Source: an uncultured Frankineae bacterium (GTDB taxonomy: Bacteria > Actinomycetota > Actinomycetes > Mycobacteriales > SCTD01). From it: 48,086 bases of DNA. This document shows, piece by piece, positions 4,727 through 21,278 of this stretch. A program made the translations under genes and the position numbers. A model generated the notes under the pieces. It ran no database searches, was not told the DNA's origin, and was given only the letters and a program-made list of their open reading frames with translations. Every line of letters begins with the position of its first letter. Positions within the stretch are counted from its first letter, which is position 1. The stretch lies in NCBI GenBank assembly GCA_902805775.1, contig CADCUB010000033.1, positions 1 to 48,086 of the forward strand, given 5' to 3'.

Positions 4727-7700
4727 TCACACCTGCCGGTGCAGGACGACGAGCGTGCCGGTGGTCCCCGGCCGGACCTGCACCTCGGCCGCCGCCGCCA
4801 TGAGCGTCGCTCCGCGGCCGCGGTCCATGCTCGGCCGGCGCTCGCGCCAGCCGCCCGAGTCGCGCACCTCCAGGCGCACCGTACGCGCGTCGGCGTCGAC
4901 CTGCAGGCGTACGAGCACCTCGTCGCGGGCCGACTGCACCGGGTGCTCGACGGCGTTGTTGACCGCCTCCGACAGCCCGAGCAGCAGCTCGAACGCCACG
5001 TCGTCGTCGACACCGGCGCGCCGGAGCAACGGCGCCACCTCCCGCCGGACGCGTCCGGCGGCCTGCGGCGTCGCCTCCACCCGGAGCTCGGCCGCCACGT
5101 CGGTGAGCGGGGCCGACGCCGCCTCCTGATCCAGCTCGCGGTGCACCACCAGCACTGCGGTGTCGTCGGCGCGCTCGCCGCCGGGGATGTCGAGGACTGC
5201 CGTGACCAGCTCGCGCGGGGTGCCGTCCCGGACGGTGTCGAGACGGGCCAGCAGGGCCGACAGCCCCTGGTCCAGCGAGGTCGACCGGTCCTCGACCAAC
5301 CCGTCGGTGTAGAGGACGAGCCGGGCGTCCTCGGGCAGCTCGCCGAGGTTGCCGCTCGCGGGCAGGCCGAGGCCGGCGCCGAGCGGCGGGCTGACCTCGC
5401 CCTCGAGCCAGGCCGGTGGCTGCGCCCCGGTGACGACGGCAGGCGGCGGGTGGCCGGCGCTGCACCAGGTCAACGCCCCCGTCCCGAGGTCGAGGTAGGC
5501 CAGGAACAGCGTGGAGAAGGACGCGCCCGGCAGCCGGTCGACCAGGTCGTCGAGCGCGGTGACCGCCTCGCTCGGGCTCAGGCCCTCGAGGGCGTACGCC
5601 CGGACGGCGGTGCGCAGCTGGCCCATGACCAGGGCGCTGGTCAGGCCCTGGCCGGCGACGTCGCCGACGCTGAGCGCCACCCGCCCGTCGGGCAGGGCGA
5701 GCACGTCGTACCAGTCGCCGCCGACCTGGACCTCGCGCTCGGCCGGGCGGTAGGCCGCGGCCAGGCCGAGCCCCGGCAGCTCCGGCAGGCGCTCGGGCAG
5801 CAGGAAGGCCTGCAGGGTGGCGGCCACGGCCGTGTCGCGCTCGGCGTGCCAGGCCTCCTCGACGACCGCCGCGAGCACGCCGGTCAGCGGCTCGAGCAGC
5901 GCCCGGGTCTCGGGCCGCAGCGCGGCGGCGGCGGACAGCTGCGCCGAGACCGTGCCGAGCTGACGACCGCGCCGCCCGCGCACCGCGACGGTCACCACCT
6001 CGCCGTCGGTGGCCTCGCCGGCCGTCCCGTCGGCGGCGGGGTCGGTCGCCTCGTAGACGAGCCCCGTGCCCTCCTCGCCGCCGGTGAGCTGCACGCGCAC
6101 CCGCGGCGCCGCGAGGGCGGCCCGGACCTGCTCGGTCAGGGTGCGCAGGGCGTCGTCGAGCCGGCGTCCCGAGGTCACCAGCGCGGCCGCGTCGGCCAGC
6201 ACCTGCAGCTGCTGCACGTGCGCGCTGCGCTGGCGGGCCATGCGCAGGGTGCCGCGCAGCCGGGCGACGAGGTCCTGCGACACGAACGGCTTGACGACGT
6301 AGTCGTCGGCCCCGAGGTCGAGGCCCTCGACGCTGGCGCCCTCGCCGGCCCGCGCCGACAGCACCACCACCGGCAGCGTCGCGGTCCGGGGGTCGGCGCG
6401 CAGGGCCCGGACGAGCTCGAAGCCGTCGAGCTCGGGCATCATCACGTCGGTCAGCAGCAGGTCCGGCGGCTCGCGCAGCGCGGCCTCGAGCGCCTCCCGG
6501 CCGTCCGGCACCGCCTCGACGGCCCAGCCCTGCGCCCGCAGCAGCCGGGTCAGGTGCTCGCGCATGTCGGCGTTGTCGTCGGCGACCAGGACCCGGACGG
6601 CGCCGGCCTCGGGCAGGGTGGGGTCGGCGGCGGCAGGCGACGGCGCCGTCCAGGACGTCGCCTCCTCGACCGAAGCCTGCAGCGCGGTGCCGGTCGCCGC
6701 CGGCGCGGCGGCCTCCGGTACGCCGCCGGCTGCGGCAGCGCGCTCGGGCAGGCGCACGACGAACCGGGTGCCGACCCCGAGCTCGCTGGCGACCTCCACC
6801 GTGCCGCCCTGCAGAGCGGTCAGCTCCTGCACCAGCGCCAGGCCGATGCCCGAGCCCTCGTGGCTGCGGGACCGCGTGCCGCTGACCCGGTGGAACCGGT
6901 CGAACAGCCGCGGCAGCGCCTCGGCGGGGATGCCCACGCCGGTGTCGGCGACCTCCAGCCGCACGCCGAGATCGTCCTCGTCCAGCCGCACGCGGATGCT
7001 GCCGGCGAAGGTGAACTTCAGCGCGTTGCTGAGCAGGTTGGTGACGATCCCCTCCCAGTGGTCGGGATCGACGTGCACGGGGCGGGTCAGCGGCGCGCAG
7101 TCGACCTCGAGCCGCAGGCCGCCGCGTTCCACGGCTGCGCGGAAGCCGCTGGCGAGGGCGGTGGTGAGCGCCGCGAGGTCGACCGGCTGCAGGGCGGCCG
7201 ACGCCGTCCCCGCCTCCACGCTGGAGAACGTGAGCAGGTCGTTGACGAGCTTGAGCAGGCGGTGCGCCCCGCGGCGCGCGGTCTCCACCCGCTCGCGCTG
7301 CGCGGGTGCGAGCGGCTCCACCTCGTCGTCCAGGGCATCGCCCAGGGGACCGAGCATCAGGGTGAGCGGCGTGCGGAACTCGTGGCTGACGTTGGTGAAG
7401 AACCTCGTCTTGGCCCGGTCGAGCTCGGCGAGCGCCTCGGCCCGCGCGCGCTCCTCCTCGTACGCCCGAGCGTTGCGCAGGGCGACCGAGACCTGCTGGG
7501 CCAGCAGCCCGAAGAACGAGCGGTACGGCTCGTCGAGCGCCCGGCTGGGGGAGACCCCGGCCACCAGGACGCCCATGGGCGCCCGCGGGTCGCTGCCCGC
7601 CAGCGAGAGCACGACCGCCTCGCTCACCGGGTCGCCGAACGCCCCACCGGACAGGGGCGTCCCCGTCGGGACGAGCACCTGCACCGGTGCACCGGCCGCC

Positions 7701-8461
7701 GACCGCAGTCCCCACGGGTCGTCGTCGGCCGGACGGACGAGCTGCGGCAGGTCGGCGCCGTACGACGCGGCGCACCGCAGCGCCTCGCCCTCGCGCAGGT
7801 AGAGCCCGAGGAACGGGACGTCGAGGGGGTGCTCGGCGACCGCCGACACGAGCCGCCCGGCGGTGTCGGCGACGGACAGGGAGCGGTCGTCGCTGAGCGA
7901 CAGCGAGCCCAGCAGGCGCAGCCGGCGCTCGCCGACGACCTGCTCGGTGACCTCGCTGCACACCGTCAGCACCCCGCGGGTGACGCCCTCGTCGTCGCGC
8001 GCCGGGGCGTGGCTGACGCTGAACCAGGCCTCCTCGCGGTAGCCGGAGCGGTCGAGCAGCAGCTGCAGCGCGGGCACCCAGCTGGCCACGCCGCTGGCCA
8101 TCGCGTCGGCGATCAGCGGGCCGAGCACGGGCCAGCCCTCGGCGAGGGTGACGCGGACGTCGTCGCCCATCGCCGCGGGGTGGCGCTCGCCGATGAGCTC
8201 CGAGTAGGCGTCGTTGTAGAGCTGGGTGAACTGCTCGCCCCACAGCAGCAGCATCGGGTAGCGCGAGGACAGCACCGTGCGGACCAGGCCGCGCAGCGCC
8301 ACCGGCCAGCCGGCGGGGTCGCCGACCGGCGTGGCCGACCAGTCGGTGGCGGCCATCAGCCGGCCGGCCGCCGTCGCCGTGTCGAAGAGGCTGTCCGTGT
8401 CGCTGAGGCGGTCCGGGTCGAAGGGGCGGTCCTGCTCCGTCACCCCGGAAGTCTCGCCCAC
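4727..8461 (-). CDS. Hybrid histidine kinase fused to response receiver, SpoIIE phosphatase and RsbW-like ATPase
   Basis: 1244-residue cytoplasmic-looking signalling protein with no clear membrane helix. Domain order: PAS-like sensor (about 20-175, containing GWPVLGPLIADAM), GAF (about 190-335), HisKA with phospho-His near 360 in SHEFRTPL, HATPase (about 450-570; N-box and GSGIGLALV G-box visible), receiver (about 620-740; phospho-Asp near 671 in LLTDVMMPELDG and Lys in VVKPF), GAF-like segment (about 750-875), SpoIIE/PP2C phosphatase (about 890-1105; GGDWYDVL metal motif near 915) and a C-terminal HATPase_c_2 domain (about 1115-1244; EAVNNAVEH N-box near 1165). It therefore joins a phosphorelay to partner-switching outputs that normally dephosphorylate an anti-sigma antagonist and bind a sigma factor. 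No STAS antagonist gene is nearby. The GTG start at 8461 lacks a strong ribosome binding site; a GTG six codons later is equally possible. Confidence 0.87.
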   Translation of the reverse strand: MGETSGVTEQDRPFDPDRLSDTDSLFDTATAAGRLMAATDWSATPVGDPAGWPVALRGLVRTVLSSRYPMLLLWGEQFTQLYNDAYSELIGERHPAAMGDDVRVTLAEGWPVLGPLIADAMASGVASWVPALQLLLDRSGYREEAWFSVSHAPARDDEGVTRGVLTVCSEVTEQVVGERRLRLLGSLSLSDDRSLSVADTAGRLVSAVAEHPLDVPFLGLYLREGEALRCAASYGADLPQLVRPADDDPWGLRSAAGAPVQVLVPTGTPLSGGAFGDPVSEAVVLSLAGSDPRAPMGVLVAGVSPSRALDEPYRSFFGLLAQQVSVALRNARAYEEERARAEALAELDRAKTRFFTNVSHEFRTPLTLMLGPLGDALDDEVEPLAPAQRERVETARRGAHRLLKLVNDLLTFSSVEAGTASAALQPVDLAALTTALASGFRAAVERGGLRLEVDCAPLTRPVHVDPDHWEGIVTNLLSNALKFTFAGSIRVRLDEDDLGVRLEVADTGVGIPAEALPRLFDRFHRVSGTRSRSHEGSGIGLALVQELTALQGGTVEVASELGVGTRFVVRLPERAAAAGGVPEAAAPAATGTALQASVEEATSWTAPSPAAADPTLPEAGAVRVLVADDNADMREHLTRLLRAQGWAVEAVPDGREALEAALREPPDLLLTDVMMPELDGFELVRALRADPRTATLPVVVLSARAGEGASVEGLDLGADDYVVKPFVSQDLVARLRGTLRMARQRSAHVQQLQVLADAAALVTSGRRLDDALRTLTEQVRAALAAPRVRVQLTGGEEGTGLVYEATDPAADGTAGEATDGEVVTVAVRGRRGRQLGTVSAQLSAAAALRPETRALLEPLTGVLAAVVEEAWHAERDTAVAATLQAFLLPERLPELPGLGLAAAYRPAEREVQVGGDWYDVLALPDGRVALSVGDVAGQGLTSALVMGQLRTAVRAYALEGLSPSEAVTALDDLVDRLPGASFSTLFLAYLDLGTGALTWCSAGHPPPAVVTGAQPPAWLEGEVSPPLGAGLGLPASGNLGELPEDARLVLYTDGLVEDRSTSLDQGLSALLARLDTVRDGTPRELVTAVLDIPGGERADDTAVLVVHRELDQEAASAPLTDVAAELRVEATPQAAGRVRREVAPLLRRAGVDDDVAFELLLGLSEAVNNAVEHPVQSARDEVLVRLQVDADARTVRLEVRDSGGWRERRPSMDRGRGATLMAAAAEVQVRPGTTGTLVVLHRQV

Positions 8462-8527
8462 CGGGGGGCGGCAGGCCCGTCAACGGCCCTGGCGTCGCAG
8501 CTGGTGGGGCCGGACCGAGCGCGCAGT

Positions 8528-8571
8528 GTCCACCGGTCGTCCACCTGGTGGTCACCGACCGTCACTCGCGC
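8528..8571 (+). promoter_or_regulatory. Four 11-bp-phased repeats, candidate PHO box (PhoP operator)
   Basis: Heptamers GTCCACC (8528), GTCCACC (8539), GGTCACC (8550) and the weaker GTCACTC (8561) recur at exactly 11 bp, each followed by four variable bases. The actinobacterial PHO box is built of 11-bp direct repeat units with a core close to GTTCACC; the first three units here each match six of seven positions. The array ends 85 bases before the start of the exported glycerophosphodiesterase/5'-nucleotidase gene, a typical phosphate-starvation target. The match is by eye. Confidence 0.6.
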
Positions 8572-8655
8572 TGCCCCTGAGTGCTCTACCGTCCGGTCGT
8601 CGCGTCGGGATCCCGGCACCGTGCAGGGCCTGCACCGGCGGACGGAGGGAGCGCC

Positions 8656-11412
8656 GTGCGCATCGTCGCGCGAGTCGTCGCACAGGTCGCCGTGGCGACC
8701 GTCACCACGTCCCTGCTGGTGGGGTCGGCGGTCGCTGCCCCGCCCGCCCCGTCCGGTGCGCCCCCCGCGAAGGCCAAGGCGGACAGCACGGCCGACCGCC
8801 CGCTCGTCTTCGGGCACCGCGGCGCGAGCGGCTACCGGCCCGAGCACACGCTGGCGTCGTACCGGCTGGCGATCCAGATGGGCGCCGACTACGTCGAGCC
8901 CGACCTCGTCGCCACCAAGGACCGCGTCCTGGTCGCCCGGCACGAGAACGAGATCTCGACCACCACCGACGTCGAGACGCATCCCGAGTTCGCCGCCCGC
9001 AAGACCACCAAGACGATCGACGGCCTCCCCGTCACCGGGTGGTTCACGGAGGACTTCACCCTGGCCGAGCTCAAGACGCTGCGCGCCGAGGAGCGCATCC
9101 CGCAGGTCCGCCAGGAGAACACCATCTACAACGGGCGCTACGAGGTCCCGACCTTCGACGAGGTCATCGACCTCGTGCAGGACGAGTCCCGGCGGCTGCG
9201 CCGCAAGATCGGCCTGGCCCCCGAGACCAAGCACCCCACCTACTTCGACTCCCTGGGCCTGTCGATGGAGGAGCCGCTGGTCAACTCCCTCAACGAGGCG
9301 GGCCTGTACGGCAAGAAGGCACCGGTGGTCATCCAGTCCTTCGAGGTGCGGAACCTGCGCCAGCTCAACCGGCTCACCCGCGTGCCGATCCTGCAGCTGA
9401 TCGGCCTGACCGGAGCGCCGTACGACCGCGTCGTCGCCGGCACCACCGACACCTACGACACGATGACCACCGACGTGGGCCTGCGCCGGATCGCGCGCTA
9501 CGCCGACTGGATCGGCCCGGACAAGAACCGCGTCGTCCCGCGCACGCCCGCCGGGGCCCTGCTCCCGCCGACCGACCTGGTCGACCGGGCGCACGCGGCC
9601 GGCCTGAAGGTGGTGCCCTACACGCTGCGCAACGAGAACCGTTTCCTGCCGATCGACTTCCGCATCGGCGCTGACCTGAACGCCTACGGCGACGCCTTCG
9701 CGGAGTACGACCTGTTCTACGGCCTGGGCGTCGACGGGGTGTTCACCGACAACCCCGACACGGCGGTCGAGGCCCGCGAGGCCGGCCCCGCTCCGGTGCC
9801 GCTGCAGCTGCTCGCGATCAACGACTTCCACGGCCAGCTCGAGGCCGTGGGCGGCTCCACCGGCACCATCGCCGGCCAGCCCGCCGGTGGCGCCGAGTAC
9901 CTCGCGACGCACATCGCCGAGCTCAAGGCGGCCGCGGGACGGGCCAAGACCGTCACGGTGGCCGCCGGCGACCTCATCGGCGCCTCACCCCTGCTGTCCG
10001 CTGCCTTCCACGACGAGCCGGCGATCGAGTCGCTGAACCTGGCCGGACTGGACTACGCCAGCGTCGGCAACCACGAGTTCGACGAGGGCGCCGAGGAGCT
10101 GCTGCGCATCCAGAACGGCGGCTGCCACCCGGTCGACGGCTGCGCCGACGGCACGCCGTACGAGGGCGCGGACTTCCAGTACCTGTCGGCCAACGCCTTC
10201 CGCACCGCCACCGGCGAGCCGCTGCTCGCGCCCTACGCCATCGAGGACGTGCGGGGGGTGAAGGTGGGCTTCATCGGCATGACCCTCGAGGGCACCGCCG
10301 ACATCGTCAGCCAGCAGGGCGTCGCGGGCCTGGAGTTCGCCGACGAGGTCGAGACGGCCAACCGCTACGCCGCCGAGCTCCAGGAGCAGGGCGTCGAGGC
10401 CATCGTCGTGCTGCTGCACGAGGGCGGTGTCCAGACCGCCGGCGGTGGGATCAACGACTGCACCGGCTTCACCGGGCCGGTCGTCGACATCGCCGAGGGC
10501 ATGTCGGACGCCATCGACGCCATCGTCAGCGGGCACACCCACCAGGCCTACAACTGCGAGGTCGACGGCAAGCTCGTCACGAGCGCCAGCTCCGCGGGGC
10601 GCCTGGTCACCGACATCGACCTGACGCTGGACCGCACCACGGGTGACGTGCTCACCGCCCGTGCCGCCAACGTCATCGTCACCCGCAGCGTCGCGGCCAA
10701 CGCCGCGCAGACCGCGCTGATCGACCGCTACCGCACCGCTCTCGGGCCGGTGGCCGGCCGGCAGGTCGGGCAGGCGGCCGTCGCCCTGACCCGCGAGAAC
10801 GAGGTGCTGTTCGAGACGGCGCCCGGGCAGCCGGTGCGCGGGGAGTCGGCGCTGGGCAACGTCATCGCCGACGCGCAGCTCGCCGCCACCGACGACGAGC
10901 AGGGCGCGGTGGCGGCGTTCATGAACCCGGGCGGGGTCCGGGCCGACCTCGACGCCGGACCGGTGACCTACGAGGAGGCGTTCTCGGTGCAGCCGTTCGC
11001 CAACAACCTGGTCACCCTCGACCTCACCGGGGCCCAGCTCTCCTGCCTGCTCGAGCAGCAGTTCGCGGTCGGCCGCGTGCTCTACCCGTCGGCCTCCGTG
11101 TCGTACGTCGTCGACCCGGCCGGGACGACCGCTCCTCCCACGGACCCCTGCTCCGGGACCCGGGTGGTGGAGGGCAGCCTGACGATCGGCGGTCAGGCGG
11201 TGGTCGACACCTCGACCTACCGCGTGACGGTGAACAGCTTCCTCGCCGGTGGCGGCGACGGCTTCTCGACGCTGCGCGAGGGGACCGGCGCCGTGACGGG
11301 ACAGGTGGACCTCGACGCCCTCGTCGCCTACCTGGGCGCCGCGTCGCCGCTGCAGGCCCCGGCGCTCGACCGCATCCGCACGCCTGCGCAGACCCTGGCC
11401 CCCGCGGCCTGA
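8656..11412 (+). CDS. Exported bifunctional glycerophosphodiester phosphodiesterase / 5'-nucleotidase
   Basis: 918-residue secreted enzyme. Residues 1-33 are a Sec signal peptide ending near AVAAPPAP. Residues about 48-375 are a GDPD TIM-barrel with the FGHRGASGYRPEHT active-site motif (His near 54), the metal-binding VEPDL and a second HENE His; it should release glycerol-3-phosphate from lipid head-group diesters. Residues about 380-905 are a UshA/5'-nucleotidase unit: NDFHG, AAGDLIGASP, GNHEFDEG, the HEGG and SGHTHQAY metal motifs, then the C-terminal substrate domain with NPGGVRADL and FSVQPFANN. The GTG start has a GGAGGGA ribosome binding site five bases upstream and replaces a longer frame that lacks one. 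Four PHO-box-like repeats precede it and a strong hairpin follows. The fusion lets one exported protein recover phosphate from diesters and nucleotides. Confidence 0.92.
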   Translation: MRIVARVVAQVAVATVTTSLLVGSAVAAPPAPSGAPPAKAKADSTADRPLVFGHRGASGYRPEHTLASYRLAIQMGADYVEPDLVATKDRVLVARHENEISTTTDVETHPEFAARKTTKTIDGLPVTGWFTEDFTLAELKTLRAEERIPQVRQENTIYNGRYEVPTFDEVIDLVQDESRRLRRKIGLAPETKHPTYFDSLGLSMEEPLVNSLNEAGLYGKKAPVVIQSFEVRNLRQLNRLTRVPILQLIGLTGAPYDRVVAGTTDTYDTMTTDVGLRRIARYADWIGPDKNRVVPRTPAGALLPPTDLVDRAHAAGLKVVPYTLRNENRFLPIDFRIGADLNAYGDAFAEYDLFYGLGVDGVFTDNPDTAVEAREAGPAPVPLQLLAINDFHGQLEAVGGSTGTIAGQPAGGAEYLATHIAELKAAAGRAKTVTVAAGDLIGASPLLSAAFHDEPAIESLNLAGLDYASVGNHEFDEGAEELLRIQNGGCHPVDGCADGTPYEGADFQYLSANAFRTATGEPLLAPYAIEDVRGVKVGFIGMTLEGTADIVSQQGVAGLEFADEVETANRYAAELQEQGVEAIVVLLHEGGVQTAGGGINDCTGFTGPVVDIAEGMSDAIDAIVSGHTHQAYNCEVDGKLVTSASSAGRLVTDIDLTLDRTTGDVLTARAANVIVTRSVAANAAQTALIDRYRTALGPVAGRQVGQAAVALTRENEVLFETAPGQPVRGESALGNVIADAQLAATDDEQGAVAAFMNPGGVRADLDAGPVTYEEAFSVQPFANNLVTLDLTGAQLSCLLEQQFAVGRVLYPSASVSYVVDPAGTTAPPTDPCSGTRVVEGSLTIGGQAVVDTSTYRVTVNSFLAGGGDGFSTLREGTGAVTGQVDLDALVAYLGAASPLQAPALDRIRTPAQTLAPAA

Positions 11413-12139: not shown

Positions 12140-12146
12140 GTTCACC
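12140..12146 (+). promoter_or_regulatory. Single GTTCACC unit before the phytase-like gene
   Basis: A perfect match to the PHO-box core heptamer lies 67 bases before the start codon of the phytase-like esterase, at a distance similar to the multi-unit sites elsewhere in the window. A related GTTCGGC lies exactly 22 bp upstream (12118), but the intervening 11-bp unit does not match. On its own a heptamer is weak evidence. Confidence 0.25.
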
Positions 12147-12213
12147 TGCCGGACCGCCGGCGGCAGGATCGTGCCGGGAGCCCGCGCGCCGACCTCTGCT
12201 CGGAGGACCCGCC

Positions 12214-13578
12214 ATGCCGACCCGCCCCGTCGCCGTCAGCGCCGCTGTCAGCGCCGCCCTGCTCCTCGGCCTGGTCGCCGCGCCTCAGGCCGCTGCGAGG
12301 GACCGGCGACCGGTGCTCGAGGCGCGCGCCGTGCTGCCCGCCGACACCTTCGGCCCCGGACCGGTGTCGGGAACGGCCCTGGGCCCCGGCCCGCTCAACG
12401 GCCGGACCCCGCCGTTCCCCTCCCAGCCGGTGCAGGGCTTCAGCGCCCTGATCGAGGACGGGGGCCCCGGCCACTACCTCGCGCTGTCCGACAACGGCTA
12501 CGGCGCCAAGGCCAACAGCGCCGACTTCCTGCTGCGGGCCCACCGCCTGCAGGTCGACTTCCCGACGGGCCAGGTGCGGGTGCGCGGCTCCCTGGGCTTC
12601 TCCGACCCGCGGGGGCTGGCCGGCCAGCCGCTCACCCGGCCCGACCGGCAGCTCACCGGCGCCGACTTCGACCCCGAGTCGATCCGCCGGGTGGCTGACG
12701 GCACCTTCTGGGTCGGTGAGGAGTTCGGACCGTCGCTGCTGCACTTCTCGGCGACGGGGGAGCTGCTGCGCCCGCCCGTCCGCCTGCCGGTGCCCGGACG
12801 GCTGGCGGCGTACGGCCGCGGTCGCGCCGTGGTGACCAGTCCCGACGCGCCGGAGCTGGCGGTGCCGGCCCCTCGGGGCGAGGACGGCGCGGTGCGGCCG
12901 CCGCTGGTGCCGGGTCCCGACGCGGCAGCTCGGGCGAACCTGCCGGGCAGCAGGGGCGTCGAGGGCATGGCGCTGTCCAGCGACGGCCGGACGCTCTACC
13001 CCAGCCTGGAGGGGGCGCTGGTCGACGACCGCGACCAGCGCCGCCGGGTCGTCTACGCCTTCGACGTGGCCCGCCAGCGCTTCCGCCCGGCGACGGCAGA
13101 CCTCCGCCTCGGGGCCGCGGGCGACGCCATCGGCGACCTGACCGCCGCAGGACCGTCGACCCTGCTGGTCATCGCGAGGGACAACGCACAGGGGGCGGCG
13201 GCCCGCACCAAGGACATCCTGTCGGTCGACATCTCGCCGTTCCGGGGCTTCCTGCCCACCACGCCCGTGGTCGACCTGCTCGCGCTGGACAACCCCGGTG
13301 CGCGGATCGGCGGCCCGGCGCAGCCCGGGACCGTGGGCCTCGGCGACCCCTTCGCCATGCCCTTCCAGACGATCGAGAGCCTGCTCGTGCGGCGCTGCAC
13401 GCTCGTCGTCGCCAACGACAACAACTACCCGTTCTCGAACGGACGCCGACCGGGCTCGCCGGACGACAACGAGATCATCTCGGTGCGGCTGCCGCGGTCA
13501 CCGACCGCCGGCCGTCCCCGCAGCGCGTCCGAGGCGCTGCTGCCCGTCGCCCTGCGACGAGCCCGGAGCGCGTGCTGA
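12214..13578 (+). CDS. Exported esterase-like phytase-family protein
   Basis: 454-residue secreted protein of the esterase-like activity of phytase family (a beta-propeller fold). Residues 1-30 form a Sec signal peptide (LLLGLVAAPQAAA). Family landmarks: GFSALIEDGGPGHYLALSDNGYG near residue 75, ADFDPESIRRVADGTFWVGEEFGPSL near 150, GVEGMALSSDGRTLYPSLEG near 250 and NDNNYPFSNGR near 405. Its biochemical substrate is not established; the family name reflects similarity to phytase-associated esterase activity. The ATG has a CGGAGGA ribosome binding site seven bases upstream; the longer frame from 11902 is not supported. It converges tail-to-tail with the receiver gene (three bases apart). Its company, with GDPD/5'-nucleotidase and PhoX nearby, suggests an organic-phosphate role. 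Confidence 0.83.
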   Translation: MPTRPVAVSAAVSAALLLGLVAAPQAAARDRRPVLEARAVLPADTFGPGPVSGTALGPGPLNGRTPPFPSQPVQGFSALIEDGGPGHYLALSDNGYGAKANSADFLLRAHRLQVDFPTGQVRVRGSLGFSDPRGLAGQPLTRPDRQLTGADFDPESIRRVADGTFWVGEEFGPSLLHFSATGELLRPPVRLPVPGRLAAYGRGRAVVTSPDAPELAVPAPRGEDGAVRPPLVPGPDAAARANLPGSRGVEGMALSSDGRTLYPSLEGALVDDRDQRRRVVYAFDVARQRFRPATADLRLGAAGDAIGDLTAAGPSTLLVIARDNAQGAAARTKDILSVDISPFRGFLPTTPVVDLLALDNPGARIGGPAQPGTVGLGDPFAMPFQTIESLLVRRCTLVVANDNNYPFSNGRRPGSPDDNEIISVRLPRSPTAGRPRSASEALLPVALRRARSAC

Positions 13579-13581
13579 CCG

Positions 13582-14232
13582 TCAGGGCAGCCCGATCAGC
13601 TGCAGCAGTGCGCGCGCCACGTCGTCCGGCGGGAGCTGCCGGGTGAAGACCGAGGTGGCGCCCGCGTCGAGCAGCGGCCCGACGCGGTTGCCGTACGCCG
13701 CCTGAGCGGTCACGACCGTGTCGGGGGAGAACTGGCGGACCTCGCGGACGACCTCGAGCCCGCCCAGCATCGCCAGCGCGTCCTCCACCAGGACGAGGTC
13801 CGGCTGCTCGGCGACGATGAGCCCGACCGCGTCCGCACCGTTCTCGGTCCGCGCGACGACGTGGACCCCGCGGTCCTCGAGCGCCCGCGTCAGCTTGCGG
13901 ACCAGCCAGTCGTTGCGGTGGGCCAGGACGACCCGGCGGTCAGCCGTGGACCGCATCAGCCCGCCGCTGGCGCGCAGCTGCTCGTGCGAGCGGGCGACGA
14001 GCGCGTCGTGCTGGCGGCCCAGCACCTCCAGCGAGCGGGCGGCGTCCATCCGCAGCTCACGGCTGTCCGCAGCCGCCGACGCGGCCTGCTGGCGCAGGCG
14101 ACGGGCGGCGTGGAAGTCCGCCATCCCGCGCAGCTGCTGCGCAGCCAGGTCGGGTTCGCTGCGCGGGCGCCACACCGGCGCCGTGGGGACCAGGGTCTCG
14201 GCGACCCGGAGGGGGGCGTTGAGGAGCGTCAT
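13582..14232 (-). CDS. Degenerate receiver-domain (pseudo-receiver) protein
   Basis: 216 residues. Residues about 30-90 are an Arg/Ala/Glu-rich helical region. Residues 99-213 have the fold pattern of a response-regulator receiver (VVLAHRNDWLVRKLTRALEDRG, then PDLVLVEDALAMLGGLEVV, then SVFTRQLPPDD). The phosphoacceptor position reads Glu-150 followed by Asp-151, the usual acidic pair after strand 1 is His-Arg-Asn-Asp, and the conserved strand-5 Lys is replaced in FTRQLPP. It may therefore be constitutively active-like or phosphorylation-independent. There is no DNA-binding output. The ATG has a TGAGGA ribosome binding site seven bases upstream. Longer upstream reading is antisense to the CHRD gene and rejected. 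Confidence 0.75.
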   Translation of the reverse strand: MTLLNAPLRVAETLVPTAPVWRPRSEPDLAAQQLRGMADFHAARRLRQQAASAAADSRELRMDAARSLEVLGRQHDALVARSHEQLRASGGLMRSTADRRVVLAHRNDWLVRKLTRALEDRGVHVVARTENGADAVGLIVAEQPDLVLVEDALAMLGGLEVVREVRQFSPDTVVTAQAAYGNRVGPLLDAGATSVFTRQLPPDDVARALLQLIGLP

Positions 14233-17103: not shown

Positions 17104-17125
17104 GTTCACGCTCCGTTCATGCAGG
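17104..17125 (+). promoter_or_regulatory. Two-unit PHO box before phoX
   Basis: GTTCACG (17104-17110) and GTTCATG (17115-17121) are two 11-bp-spaced direct repeat units, each matching the actinobacterial PHO-box core GTTCACC in at least five of seven positions including the invariant TTCA. The site lies 62-83 bases before the phoX start codon, a usual position for PhoP activation under phosphate limitation. Confidence 0.65.
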
Positions 17126-17186: not shown

Positions 17187-19454
17187 GTGACCACAACGCA
17201 GGACGGCCCCCGGCGCCGCCTCCTCCCGCTGCTGACCCGCCACGGCAGCCGCAGCCACCTGACGTGCCACTACCGGTGCGGCAACGCCTGCGACGCACCG
17301 GTGCCCAACGAGACGGACAACCCCTACTTCGGGGACGTCGCGTCTGCCGTCGTCAGCCGGCGGGGCCTGCTCAAGGGCGCGGGGGCCGGTGCCCTCCTCG
17401 TCAGCGCCGGCACTGCGGGAGCGGCACCGGCTCTCGCGACGGTCGTCCCGCCGCCGACCCGCGGCCCCGGAGGTCGAGGAGGAGCAGGGCAGGCGGACTC
17501 GGCGCTGACCTTCACCACGGTCGGCCCGAACGTCCTCGACGAGCTGGTCACCGCTCCCGGCTACGCCTACGACGTCGTCATGCGCTGGGGCGACCCGGTG
17601 GTGCCGGGCGCGCCCGCCTTCGACATCGACAAGCAGACGCCGGAGGCGCAGGCCCAGCAGTTCGGCTACAACTGCGACTACATCGGCTTCCTGCCCCTGG
17701 CCGGCAACCGCAAGGGCGAGCGCCGGGCGCTGCTGATCGTCAACCACGAGTACACCGACGAGCAGCTGATGTTCCGGGGCGTGCTGTCGGAGAGCGCGCC
17801 GACGACGGCGGACCAGAAGCGGATCGCGATGGCGGCGCACGGCCTGTCGGTCGTGGAGCTCCAGCAGGTCCGCCGCACGGGGAAGTGGCGGCAGGCACGC
17901 CTCGGGGGCTACAACCGCCGGATCACCGCCATGACACCCATGCGCCTGACCGGTCCGGTCGCCGGGTCGGAGTACGTGCGCACCTCGGCCGACCCGGCCG
18001 GCAGGACGGTGCTCGGCACGCTGAACAACTGCGCCGGAGGCATCACGCCCTGGGGGACGACGCTGCACGGCGAGGAGAACTTCAACCAGTACTTCGGGAC
18101 CTCCGCGAAGATCACGGAGAACGCGAAGGAGCCCCGACTGGCCCGCTACGGCATCTCCACGGACAAGCCACCCAGCCGTCGCTGGGACGAGGTCGACCGG
18201 CGCTTCGACCTGACCTCGGAGCCCAACGAGGCCAACCGCTTCGGCTACATCGTCGAGCTCGACCCGTACGACCCGCAGTCCACGCCGGTCAAGCGCACGG
18301 CGATGGGCCGCTTCAAGCACGAGGGCGCCACCATCCGCATCGCCGAGGACGGCCGGGTCGTCGCCTACTCCGGCGACGACGAGCGCTTCGACTACATCTA
18401 CAAGTTCGTCTCCAAGGGCATCTACGACCCGGCGAAGGGCCCGGCTGCCCGCGCGCACAACATGACCCTGCTGGAGGAGGGCGACCTCTACGTCGCCCGC
18501 TTCACCGGCGACTCGCCGGCCGAGGAGATCGACGGCACCGGCCGCCTGCCCGGTGACGAGCAGTTCGACGGCACCGGCCGGTGGATCCCGCTGGTGCAGA
18601 ACGGCGAGTCGAAGGTGCCGGGCAAGTCGGTGGCGTGGGTGCTGACCTTCACCCGCCTGGCCGCGGACCGGCTCGGCAAGCAGCTCGACGACGCCGGGGA
18701 CTTCCCCGACCCTGCTGTGCCGGTCGTGGTGCAGCCGGCACTCGTGCCGACCCGGATGGACCGACCCGAGGACATCCAGACCAACCCGGTCAACGGCCGT
18801 ACGTACGCCGCGCTGACCAACAACTCCCGCCGCACGACCGGGCCGGACGAGGCGAACCCGCTCACGCAGTCGTGGGCGTTCGAGACCAACCCTGCGGGCG
18901 TGGGCTCGTACGAGAGGCGCCCCGGCAACCGCAACGGCCACGTCATCGAGTGGACGGAGACCGACGGGATCGCCGGACGCGACTTCTACTGGCGCATCTT
19001 CATCGTCGCCGGCGACCCGGAGAAGCCCGAGACCTACTTCGCCGGCTACGACAAGACCAAGGTCAGCCCGATGAGCTGCCCGGACAACCTGGAGTTCGAC
19101 GCGGCGGGCAACCTGTGGATCTCCACCGACGGCACGGTCCTGTCGATCGTGAACGCGCGGGAGGGCACCACCAGCGGGAGCAACGACGGGCTGTTCGCCG
19201 TCCCGACCGCCGGACCCGAGCGCGGGCACCTGCGGCAGTTCCTCACCGTGCCGGTCGGCGCCGAGTGCTCCGGACCGCAGATCACTCCTGACGGCCTGTC
19301 GGTCTTCATCGCCGCGCAGCACCCGGGTGAGACGGCCGGCTCCACGCTGGAGCGCCCGTCCAGCACCTGGCCCGACCGTCGCGCACAGGGGGGCTTCCCG
19401 CGGCCGAGCGTGGCCGTGGTCTACCGGCCGGACGGCGGCCGGCTCGGCAGCTGA
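17187..19454 (+). CDS. phoX: Tat-exported alkaline phosphatase PhoX
   Basis: 755-residue PhoX-family phosphatase, a calcium/iron enzyme that releases phosphate from phosphomonoesters outside the cell. The Tat signal is internal, as usual for this group: SRRGLLKG with the twin Arg at 58-59, then a hydrophobic run to about residue 82. Mature landmarks include FGYNCDYIGF, VNHEYTDEQLMF, GGITPWGTTLHGEENFNQYF, YGIVELDP-type segments in the middle and CPDNLEFDAAGNLWISTDG near residue 640. The N-terminal 50 residues include a Cys-rich stretch (CHYRCGNACDAP) also typical of actinomycete PhoX. The GTG start has a GGAG ribosome binding site. A two-unit PHO box lies upstream and a 16-bp hairpin downstream, so it is likely a single-gene PhoP-controlled unit. 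Confidence 0.94.
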   Translation: MTTTQDGPRRRLLPLLTRHGSRSHLTCHYRCGNACDAPVPNETDNPYFGDVASAVVSRRGLLKGAGAGALLVSAGTAGAAPALATVVPPPTRGPGGRGGAGQADSALTFTTVGPNVLDELVTAPGYAYDVVMRWGDPVVPGAPAFDIDKQTPEAQAQQFGYNCDYIGFLPLAGNRKGERRALLIVNHEYTDEQLMFRGVLSESAPTTADQKRIAMAAHGLSVVELQQVRRTGKWRQARLGGYNRRITAMTPMRLTGPVAGSEYVRTSADPAGRTVLGTLNNCAGGITPWGTTLHGEENFNQYFGTSAKITENAKEPRLARYGISTDKPPSRRWDEVDRRFDLTSEPNEANRFGYIVELDPYDPQSTPVKRTAMGRFKHEGATIRIAEDGRVVAYSGDDERFDYIYKFVSKGIYDPAKGPAARAHNMTLLEEGDLYVARFTGDSPAEEIDGTGRLPGDEQFDGTGRWIPLVQNGESKVPGKSVAWVLTFTRLAADRLGKQLDDAGDFPDPAVPVVVQPALVPTRMDRPEDIQTNPVNGRTYAALTNNSRRTTGPDEANPLTQSWAFETNPAGVGSYERRPGNRNGHVIEWTETDGIAGRDFYWRIFIVAGDPEKPETYFAGYDKTKVSPMSCPDNLEFDAAGNLWISTDGTVLSIVNAREGTTSGSNDGLFAVPTAGPERGHLRQFLTVPVGAECSGPQITPDGLSVFIAAQHPGETAGSTLERPSSTWPDRRAQGGFPRPSVAVVYRPDGGRLGS

Positions 19455-19521: not shown

Positions 19522-21069
19522 CTAGTCGAACCACTTGCGCAGCCGGCGGCGCGAGACCGCGGCGCGCGCCTGCGGCCACCGGGCGACGGCGGCCTCGGCG
19601 CGCACCTGCTCCAGGGCGTGCAGCCGGCCGAAGGTGAAGCCGTTCTCGCCCGCCAGGTGCCCCCGGGCCCCCAGCTCGCGCAGCACCTGCCGGGTCACGA
19701 CGCCGTCCTGGAAGTCGCCCAGCGACTCCTGCAGCTCGGCGATCGCGGCGGCGTAGTCGCGGGCGGGGCGCCCGACGACCGGCTCCACCGCTTCGGCGGC
19801 GTAGCGCGTGCGCTTGGCGTCCTTGCGCACCTCGTGCAGCAGCTCGTCCTGCTCCGGCCCGCGAGGTGCGCGCTCCGCGGCCGACATCGTGCGGTCCAGC
19901 CGTCGCCACGTGCGGCGGACGAGCCTCGGCAGAGCCGCGGCTGCGTCGTCCGCCGCGGACGGCAGGAACGGCGGGGCCGCGACCAGCGCGTCGAGGGCGT
20001 CCAGCAGGCGCAGGTAGCGCTCGCCGTCCAGCTCGGCGAGCACCGCGTCGTGCGCGGCGCGGTGCCGCCGGGTCATCAGCAGGTCGATGCGGACCTGCAC
20101 CTTGCCCAGGACCAGGTCGTCGGGCTCGGCGGCGACCAGCTTCCGCAGCCGGGCGTGCATGACCTCCGCGTCGCGTGCCGCGCCGAGCACGCCCGCCAGC
20201 CACCGCAGCTCGTCGCGCAGGGGGTCGGTGCGCTCGCGCTCGAGCAGCGGCCGGAACGTCGCCAGGGCGCTGCGCAGCCGGCGGGTGGCGACCCGCATCT
20301 TGTGCAGCCCGTCGGGCAGGTCCCGGCGCGTGTGCGGGTCCCGGGCGACCAGCTCCGCCACCTGCGCGGCGAGGTGCGCCTGGACGGCGCTGCCCACGGT
20401 CGGCCGCGCGCGGCGACCCTTGCCGACGGCCTCCCAGGGCGGTGCGTCCTGCGACGAGGACGGGCGGGGCAGCACTCGGCCGAGCTTGGACGCCGACCTC
20501 GCCAGCACGGCGCCGGCGTCGAGCAGCTGCGGCTGCACGGCGTCGAGGAGCTCCCCACCGCCGGTCAGCAGCTCCACCTCCCACTCGCGCCAGGCCAGCT
20601 CGACCCCGTCCGGCAAGGGGCGGCCGACCACCGTGTCGTCAGCGAGCTCGGCCAGCGGTGTGCCGTCCGCGGCCAGCAGTCGTCGGGCGACGCGACGGGT
20701 CGACAGGCGGGCCACGGGGGCGAGCTCGCGGTCGCGCACGCGGGAGCGGACGAGCGCCGCCAGCACGTCGGGCACCGCACCCGGCTGCGCGTCGAGCACC
20801 ACCTCCTCGCGGGCGCGTCCGGCCGGGAGCTTGAGGTGCCAGCCCGCGTCCGTGCCGCCGGTGCGGTGCCGCAGGGTGATGCCGGCCGACCGGAGCCGCA
20901 GGTCGGCGGTGTCGAAGTAGACCGCCTCGAGCGCGTGCTCGTCGGCCGTGACGGTGGCGACGCCCGGCAGGCCGGTCAGCTCCGGCACCTCGGCGTCCGG
21001 GACGACGTCGTACTTGCGCTCGACCTCCAGCGACGAGCGCAGCGCTGCCGGAGACTGGTCACCAGCCAC
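19522..21069 (-). CDS. CYTH and CHAD domain-containing protein
   Basis: 515-residue two-domain protein. Residues about 10-205 are a CYTH/triphosphate-tunnel domain: the EVERKY signature (ExExK) near the start, then YFDTADLRL, GITLRHRTGG and a WHLKLPAG strand; this fold binds and often hydrolyses inorganic triphosphate. Residues about 225-510 are a CHAD helical domain with repeated basic helices and conserved His/Arg motifs (HKMRVATRRLRSAL, EVRKDAKRTRYAAEAV), which is known to bind polyphosphate. The pair is commonly found near polyphosphate or phosphate genes. I place the start at the GTG at 21069, seven bases after AGGAG; an in-frame GTG at 21084 would add five residues but has no good ribosome binding site. 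It converges on phoX across a shared hairpin. Confidence 0.9.
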   Translation of the reverse strand: MAGDQSPAALRSSLEVERKYDVVPDAEVPELTGLPGVATVTADEHALEAVYFDTADLRLRSAGITLRHRTGGTDAGWHLKLPAGRAREEVVLDAQPGAVPDVLAALVRSRVRDRELAPVARLSTRRVARRLLAADGTPLAELADDTVVGRPLPDGVELAWREWEVELLTGGGELLDAVQPQLLDAGAVLARSASKLGRVLPRPSSSQDAPPWEAVGKGRRARPTVGSAVQAHLAAQVAELVARDPHTRRDLPDGLHKMRVATRRLRSALATFRPLLERERTDPLRDELRWLAGVLGAARDAEVMHARLRKLVAAEPDDLVLGKVQVRIDLLMTRRHRAAHDAVLAELDGERYLRLLDALDALVAAPPFLPSAADDAAAALPRLVRRTWRRLDRTMSAAERAPRGPEQDELLHEVRKDAKRTRYAAEAVEPVVGRPARDYAAAIAELQESLGDFQDGVVTRQVLRELGARGHLAGENGFTFGRLHALEQVRAEAAVARWPQARAAVSRRRLRKWFD

Positions 21070-21278
21070 CGGACGGCTCCTCACTCAGGTGCTCGGGCTG
21101 TCGGCGTCCCTCGTCGGCGGTCACGGCAGGTCCCTGCCCGAGGTGGGGGAACGGCATGCCAGGGGCGGGAGGGCTGCTCCCCGGTGCGTCATGGACGCAG
21201 CGCAGACGGCGTCAGCAGGCTCCGGCGGTCGACGGCTTCACGACCGCCTACCGGCGCGAGCTGGGGCTGTGAGGGGCG

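Follow-up and report, generated by a model that had tools for sequence, protein, structure and literature searches.

A probable PHO box upstream of a predicted secreted GDPD/5'-nucleotidase fusion gene in an uncultured Frankineae bacterium

Is the gene for a GDPD/5'-nucleotidase fusion enzyme in an uncultured Frankineae bacterium controlled by the phosphate regulator PhoP? In Streptomyces, it is established that PhoP operators are composed of 11-bp units whose core is GTTCACC (PMC4415409; PMC6283541). A sequence-only reading of the window, the whole 48,086-nucleotide stretch of DNA analysed here, had pointed to a four-unit array of such repeats before the fusion gene and had proposed that PhoP activates the gene directly. 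We examined the array, its promoter, the phosphate system of the host and the enzyme itself, and found this proposal well supported by sequence.

Results

Three good repeat units and a degenerate one precede the fusion gene

The array is located in a gap of 194 bp with the fusion gene on one side and a divergent kinase gene on the other. The strings GTCCACC (8528-8534), GTCCACC (8539-8545), GGTCACC (8550-8556) and GTCACTC (8561-8567) do follow one another at exact 11-bp steps on the forward strand, as had been read from the sequence. The distance to the gene, given as 85 bases, is 84 bases between position 8571 and the GTG start at 8656. Scored with an 11-bp unit matrix, unit 1 (GTCCACCGGTC, 8528-8538) reached 9.0 bits, unit 2 (GTCCACCTGGT, 8539-8549) was the highest-scoring unit with 12.9 bits, and unit 3 (GGTCACCGACC, 8550-8560) reached 6.0 bits. 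The fourth string (8560-8571) fails as a true unit, with -4.8 bits for GTCACTC in the 11-bp register and a marginal 0.35 bits for CGTCACT, read one base earlier from 8560. Calling the array four-unit was therefore slightly generous, and it is best described as three good units and one degenerate unit. A PHO box consists of at least two 11-bp direct repeats with a GTTCACC-like core; the array has three such units in exact register, and a fourth is not required. The perfect GTTCACC is absent from all units, and both core units have a T-to-C change at position 3. The resulting GTCCACC is a legitimate variant, because the second unit is GTCCACC or GTCCACT in 5 of the 19 pstS boxes used for training.

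The array resembles conserved PHO boxes beyond chance

We used two matrices: a 22-bp pair matrix trained on 19 pstS boxes of the same family, with the own genome excluded, and a softer 11-bp unit matrix built from 38 units taken from the pstS boxes of 19 other genomes in the family. The background consisted of 264 kb of sampled stretches of the own genome (526,470 positions), complemented by a genome-wide pattern search. With the 22-bp matrix, the pairs at 8528 (20.3) and 8539 (16.0) were the two highest-scoring pairs in the 48-kb window, both strands considered, and the background maximum was 13.5. This first rank with a pstS-trained matrix bears out the PHO-box-like identity proposed for the array. 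Scoring with a PHO-box position weight matrix, which had been suggested as a check, gave 21.9 for the pair at 8528 with the unit matrix, compared to a background maximum of 15.3, and 28.0 for the array triple, compared to 9.8. The exact tail under a first-order background was 1.7e-10 per position for the triple, and chance alone would yield about 0.12 pairs and about 0.001 triples of this quality per genome; the exact tails agreed with the background counts observed. By both tests, the similarity of the array to conserved PHO boxes exceeds chance. The pattern search found 28 sites with at most two mismatches to GTTCACC-N4-GTTCACC, compared to 6 for a reversed control. Among these 28 sites, which cover such near matches to the pair consensus and are not a full ranking of the genome, the own pstS alone outscored the array.

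The promoter fits the family pattern with one extra helical turn

Downstream of the array is a probable -10 element, TACCGT (8587-8592, forward strand), located at +59 from unit 1 and the sole TANNNT between 8528 and 8656. In 11 of 20 pstS promoters of the family a TANNNT is found exactly at +49 from the start of the first unit, and three more of the 20 fit if the distance is measured from a second array or from one shifted by a single base. Three family pstS promoters share the hexamer TACCGT exactly. The position at +59 instead of +49 adds 10 bp, about one helical turn, and we infer that PhoP would occupy the same face of the DNA, one unit farther upstream than at pstS. A scan for the sigma-70 consensus gave no match, which is no surprise for a promoter that is GC-rich and depends on an activator. 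The ribosome-binding site GGAGGGAG (8644-8651, forward strand) ends 4 nt before the GTG start at 8656.

The genome encodes a cognate PhoR-PhoP system

The own genome (G000) is a 3.46-Mb draft in 167 contigs, 92% complete. Its pstS gene, on contig C131, is preceded by GTTCGCC, GTTCACC, GCCGTCC and CTTCACC at 11-bp steps, followed by TACCTT. Each of the other 19 pstS promoters examined in the family likewise has a PHO box. The phoU gene, on contig C70, has GTTCACC and GTTCATG upstream, 22 bp apart. Beside phoU are genes for a sensor kinase and a response regulator, a phoR-phoP pair divergent to phoU, and the genome thus has a cognate PhoR-PhoP. PhoP matched Mycobacterium tuberculosis RegX3 (2oqr) with 1.8e-110, and the recognition stretch VGDTKTLDVHVKRLR is identical; judged from its sequence, PhoP is a RegX3-type OmpR-family response regulator. 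The matches to the NCBIfam PhoB and PhoR models in the own genome were below their cut-offs, and therefore the identity of PhoP rests on the similarity to RegX3 and on gene order.

The predicted product fuses two phosphatases that are separate in the other genomes sampled

The gene downstream of the array (8656-11412, forward strand) encodes a predicted secreted protein of 918 amino acids with a signal-peptide-like N terminus. Its assignment as a GDPD/5'-nucleotidase fusion was confirmed by matches to the Pfam families GDPD (3.3e-46), Metallophos (calcineurin-like phosphoesterase; 3.1e-05) and 5_nucleotid_C (9.5e-33). The catalytic motifs HRG, EPD, RHEN, NDFHG, GNHE and GHTH are intact and distributed over both halves, so that the product has the predicted activities of a phosphate scavenger, as expected of a Pho regulon member.

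Elsewhere in the order, each half is encoded by a gene of its own. The matches listed from 24 genomes of the family, 299 of the order and 395 of the class included no protein spanning both halves, and the same holds for the 80 best named loci, which were checked with 1.5-kb flanks. The same domain order, the mark of an established fusion family, was thus not found elsewhere in the genomes sampled, and the literature, as far as it was covered, yielded no report of such a fusion. Two long open frames among the GDPD matches of other genomes (G325 and G001) appeared to be possible fusions and on reading encoded GDPD alone. At the junction (...NPDTAVEAREAGPAPVPLQLLAINDFHG..., about 9760-9820) the usual end of a GDPD meets the usual start of a mature nucleotidase, and the nucleotidase signal peptide is missing; this speaks against an assembly join and in favour of a genuine fusion. 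We lean towards a lineage-specific fusion that united a secreted GDPD and a secreted 5'-nucleotidase, phosphatases normally encoded apart, with clean loss of the nucleotidase signal peptide and a single PhoP operator.

The divergent gene that shares the intergenic region (4727-8461, minus strand, start at 8461) encodes a hybrid histidine kinase/SpoIIE phosphatase. There was no TANNNT facing this gene in 8462-8656.

Other PHO-like sites occur in the window

The third best pair in the window, GTTCACGCTCCGTTCATGCAGG (GTTCACG-N4-GTTCATG, 17104-17125, forward strand), scored 18.2, above every sampled background position, and is located 83 bp before the start of a gene for a PhoX alkaline phosphatase (17187-19454, forward strand; Pfam PhoX 4.5e-148). 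Adjoining PhoX on the minus strand is a gene for a CYTH-CHAD protein with polyphosphate-linked domains (19522-21084), which suggests that a small phosphate island extends over 8.6-21 kb.

A gene for a phytase-like esterase (12214-13578) has a single strong unit, GTTCACCTGCC (12140-12150, 15.7 bits), 74 bp before it. A weak unit, GTTCGGC, is found 22 bp upstream of the strong one; the phoU boxes have the same spacing. A PHO-like pair on the minus strand, ATTCGCC-N4-GTTCACC (14472-14451, 15.8 bits), is located in the gap that precedes a small gene for a response regulator (13582-14232, minus strand).

Separate GDPD homologues often have PHO-like arrays

We analyzed the upstream regions of the separate homologues. 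GDPD homologues with about 60% identity are found across the order, and 22 of 40 of their upstream regions contained a PHO pair at p<0.05, with 2 expected from first-order resampling; these regions come from related genomes, so that the 22 are not independent events and their number makes the evidence look more independent than it is. Many GDPD upstream regions of one family (f15) contain four 11-bp units and, downstream of them at +49, a conserved TCTGCT; this is the position of the pstS -10 element. The array in this group of upstream regions (L224-L253, order set, mostly f15) reads [AG]TTCA[CT]C, GGCCAGC, GACCAAC and GGTCAAT before TCTGCT at +49. Within the genus, p<0.05 was reached in 2 of the 5 closest GDPD-only and 3 of 5 nucleotidase-only upstream regions. 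None of the five closest GDPD-only regions of the genus has the exact array of the window, and its conservation is not to be expected when the gene itself was found in a single genome. Before 5'-nucleotidase homologues the enrichment was weak: p<0.05 was reached in 12 of 48 upstream regions, compared to 0 of 47 coding controls, the 48 being the named and order sets together, with partly overlapping lineages.

Discussion

The array is very probably a PHO box. We give a probability of roughly 0.87 to the reading in which PhoP binds it, helps RNA polymerase and activates the fusion gene under phosphate starvation. Direct activation by PhoP, as put forward by the sequence-only reading, is supported because several lines agree: the PHO-box identity of the array, the cognate PhoR-PhoP, the boxes at pstS and phoU, the matching -10 element, the PHO-like arrays of homologues and the predicted phosphate-scavenging product. 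What the computation shows is the array with its statistical excess and its match to the pstS boxes of the family, the presence of PhoR-PhoP, and the domains and motifs of the enzyme; we infer the binding and activation by PhoP, the response to phosphate and the two catalytic activities. Phosphorylated PhoP would bind the 11-bp direct repeats head to tail, most strongly at units 1 and 2 and cooperatively at unit 3 and perhaps the degenerate fourth unit. From there it could help RNA polymerase at a promoter with the TACCGT -10 element and a poor -35 region. Phosphate starvation would then switch on a secreted bifunctional enzyme that may cleave glycerophosphodiesters and 5'-nucleotides, releasing phosphate.

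Another OmpR-family regulator of the PolR, GlnR, MtrA or AfsR type might be the main binder, alone or in competition with PhoP, with an input that is not only phosphate. PolR of Microlunatus phosphovorus binds a near-identical repeat and its authors propose an overlap with PhoB/PhoP (PMC6754071), and the core units of the array depart from GTTCACC. However, the matrix that ranks the array so highly was built from pstS boxes, the genome has a full phoU/phoR-phoP system, and the gene downstream encodes a predicted phosphate scavenger; we consider a different main regulator unlikely. To the same degree we doubt that PhoP binds the array mainly to repress or control the divergent kinase/SpoIIE gene, or acts on both genes. 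The array is merely 67 bp upstream of the start of that gene at 8461, but the repeats are oriented toward the fusion gene, as they are toward pstS, the gap lacks a kinase-facing TANNNT, and the kinase has no known phosphate role.

Least probable of all, and very improbable, is that the array is a functionless repeat that arose by chance in GC-rich DNA. Partial matches are common at 75% GC, and the 28 near matches to the pair consensus in the genome (6 for the reversed control) illustrate this, but the triple score of 28.0 is far from the background maximum of 9.8, with 0.001 such triples expected per genome, and the array is intergenic, in the right orientation and before a gene of the correct kind. 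Activation of the fusion gene by PhoP hence remains our preferred reading: very probably a familiar kind of switch on an unusual, apparently rare fused enzyme.

If the fusion is as we describe it, one PHO box would drive a single exported enzyme that obtains phosphate from phospholipid head groups and nucleotides, and the gene would lie near the phytase-like and PhoX genes within a small phosphate-scavenging island. The rare bifunctional enzyme gains a testable phosphate response, and the operator grammar of PhoP, 11-bp units with a -10 element at a fixed distance, is extended to an actinobacterial family that has received little study. Because the alignment of pstS promoters across the family fixes the distance from operator to promoter, further Pho regulon genes become predictable. 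Otherwise, the regulation is of the expected kind.

The array shares with the PHO boxes of family pstS genes the 11-bp units, the GTTCACC-type core and the downstream TANNNT -10 element, but its -10 is at +59 instead of +49 and pstS has a GTTCAYC-type core unit. A direct repeat, GTTCAC-n5-GTTCaC, is also what the response regulator PolR of M. phosphovorus binds in its footprint; unlike PhoR-PhoP, PolR belongs to a different two-component system, for which an oxygen signal is proposed (PMC6754071). In Streptomyces coelicolor, SCO4152 is a PhoP-regulated extracellular 5'-nucleotidase (PMC7866108). The enzyme described here is likewise a predicted phosphate-regulated secreted 5'-nucleotidase, but as the C-terminal half of a fusion rather than a stand-alone protein. 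The PhoP-dependent glpQ1 and glpQ2 genes of S. coelicolor have four to five 11-bp units over the -35 region (PMC7866108). Our array differs in its core units, GTCCACC instead of GTTCACC, and in the gene that it precedes, whose GDPD is joined to a 5'-nucleotidase, but the arrangement is like that of the glpQ1 and glpQ2 operators, with a secreted GDPD gene behind 11-bp direct repeats of variable quality (PMC7866108).
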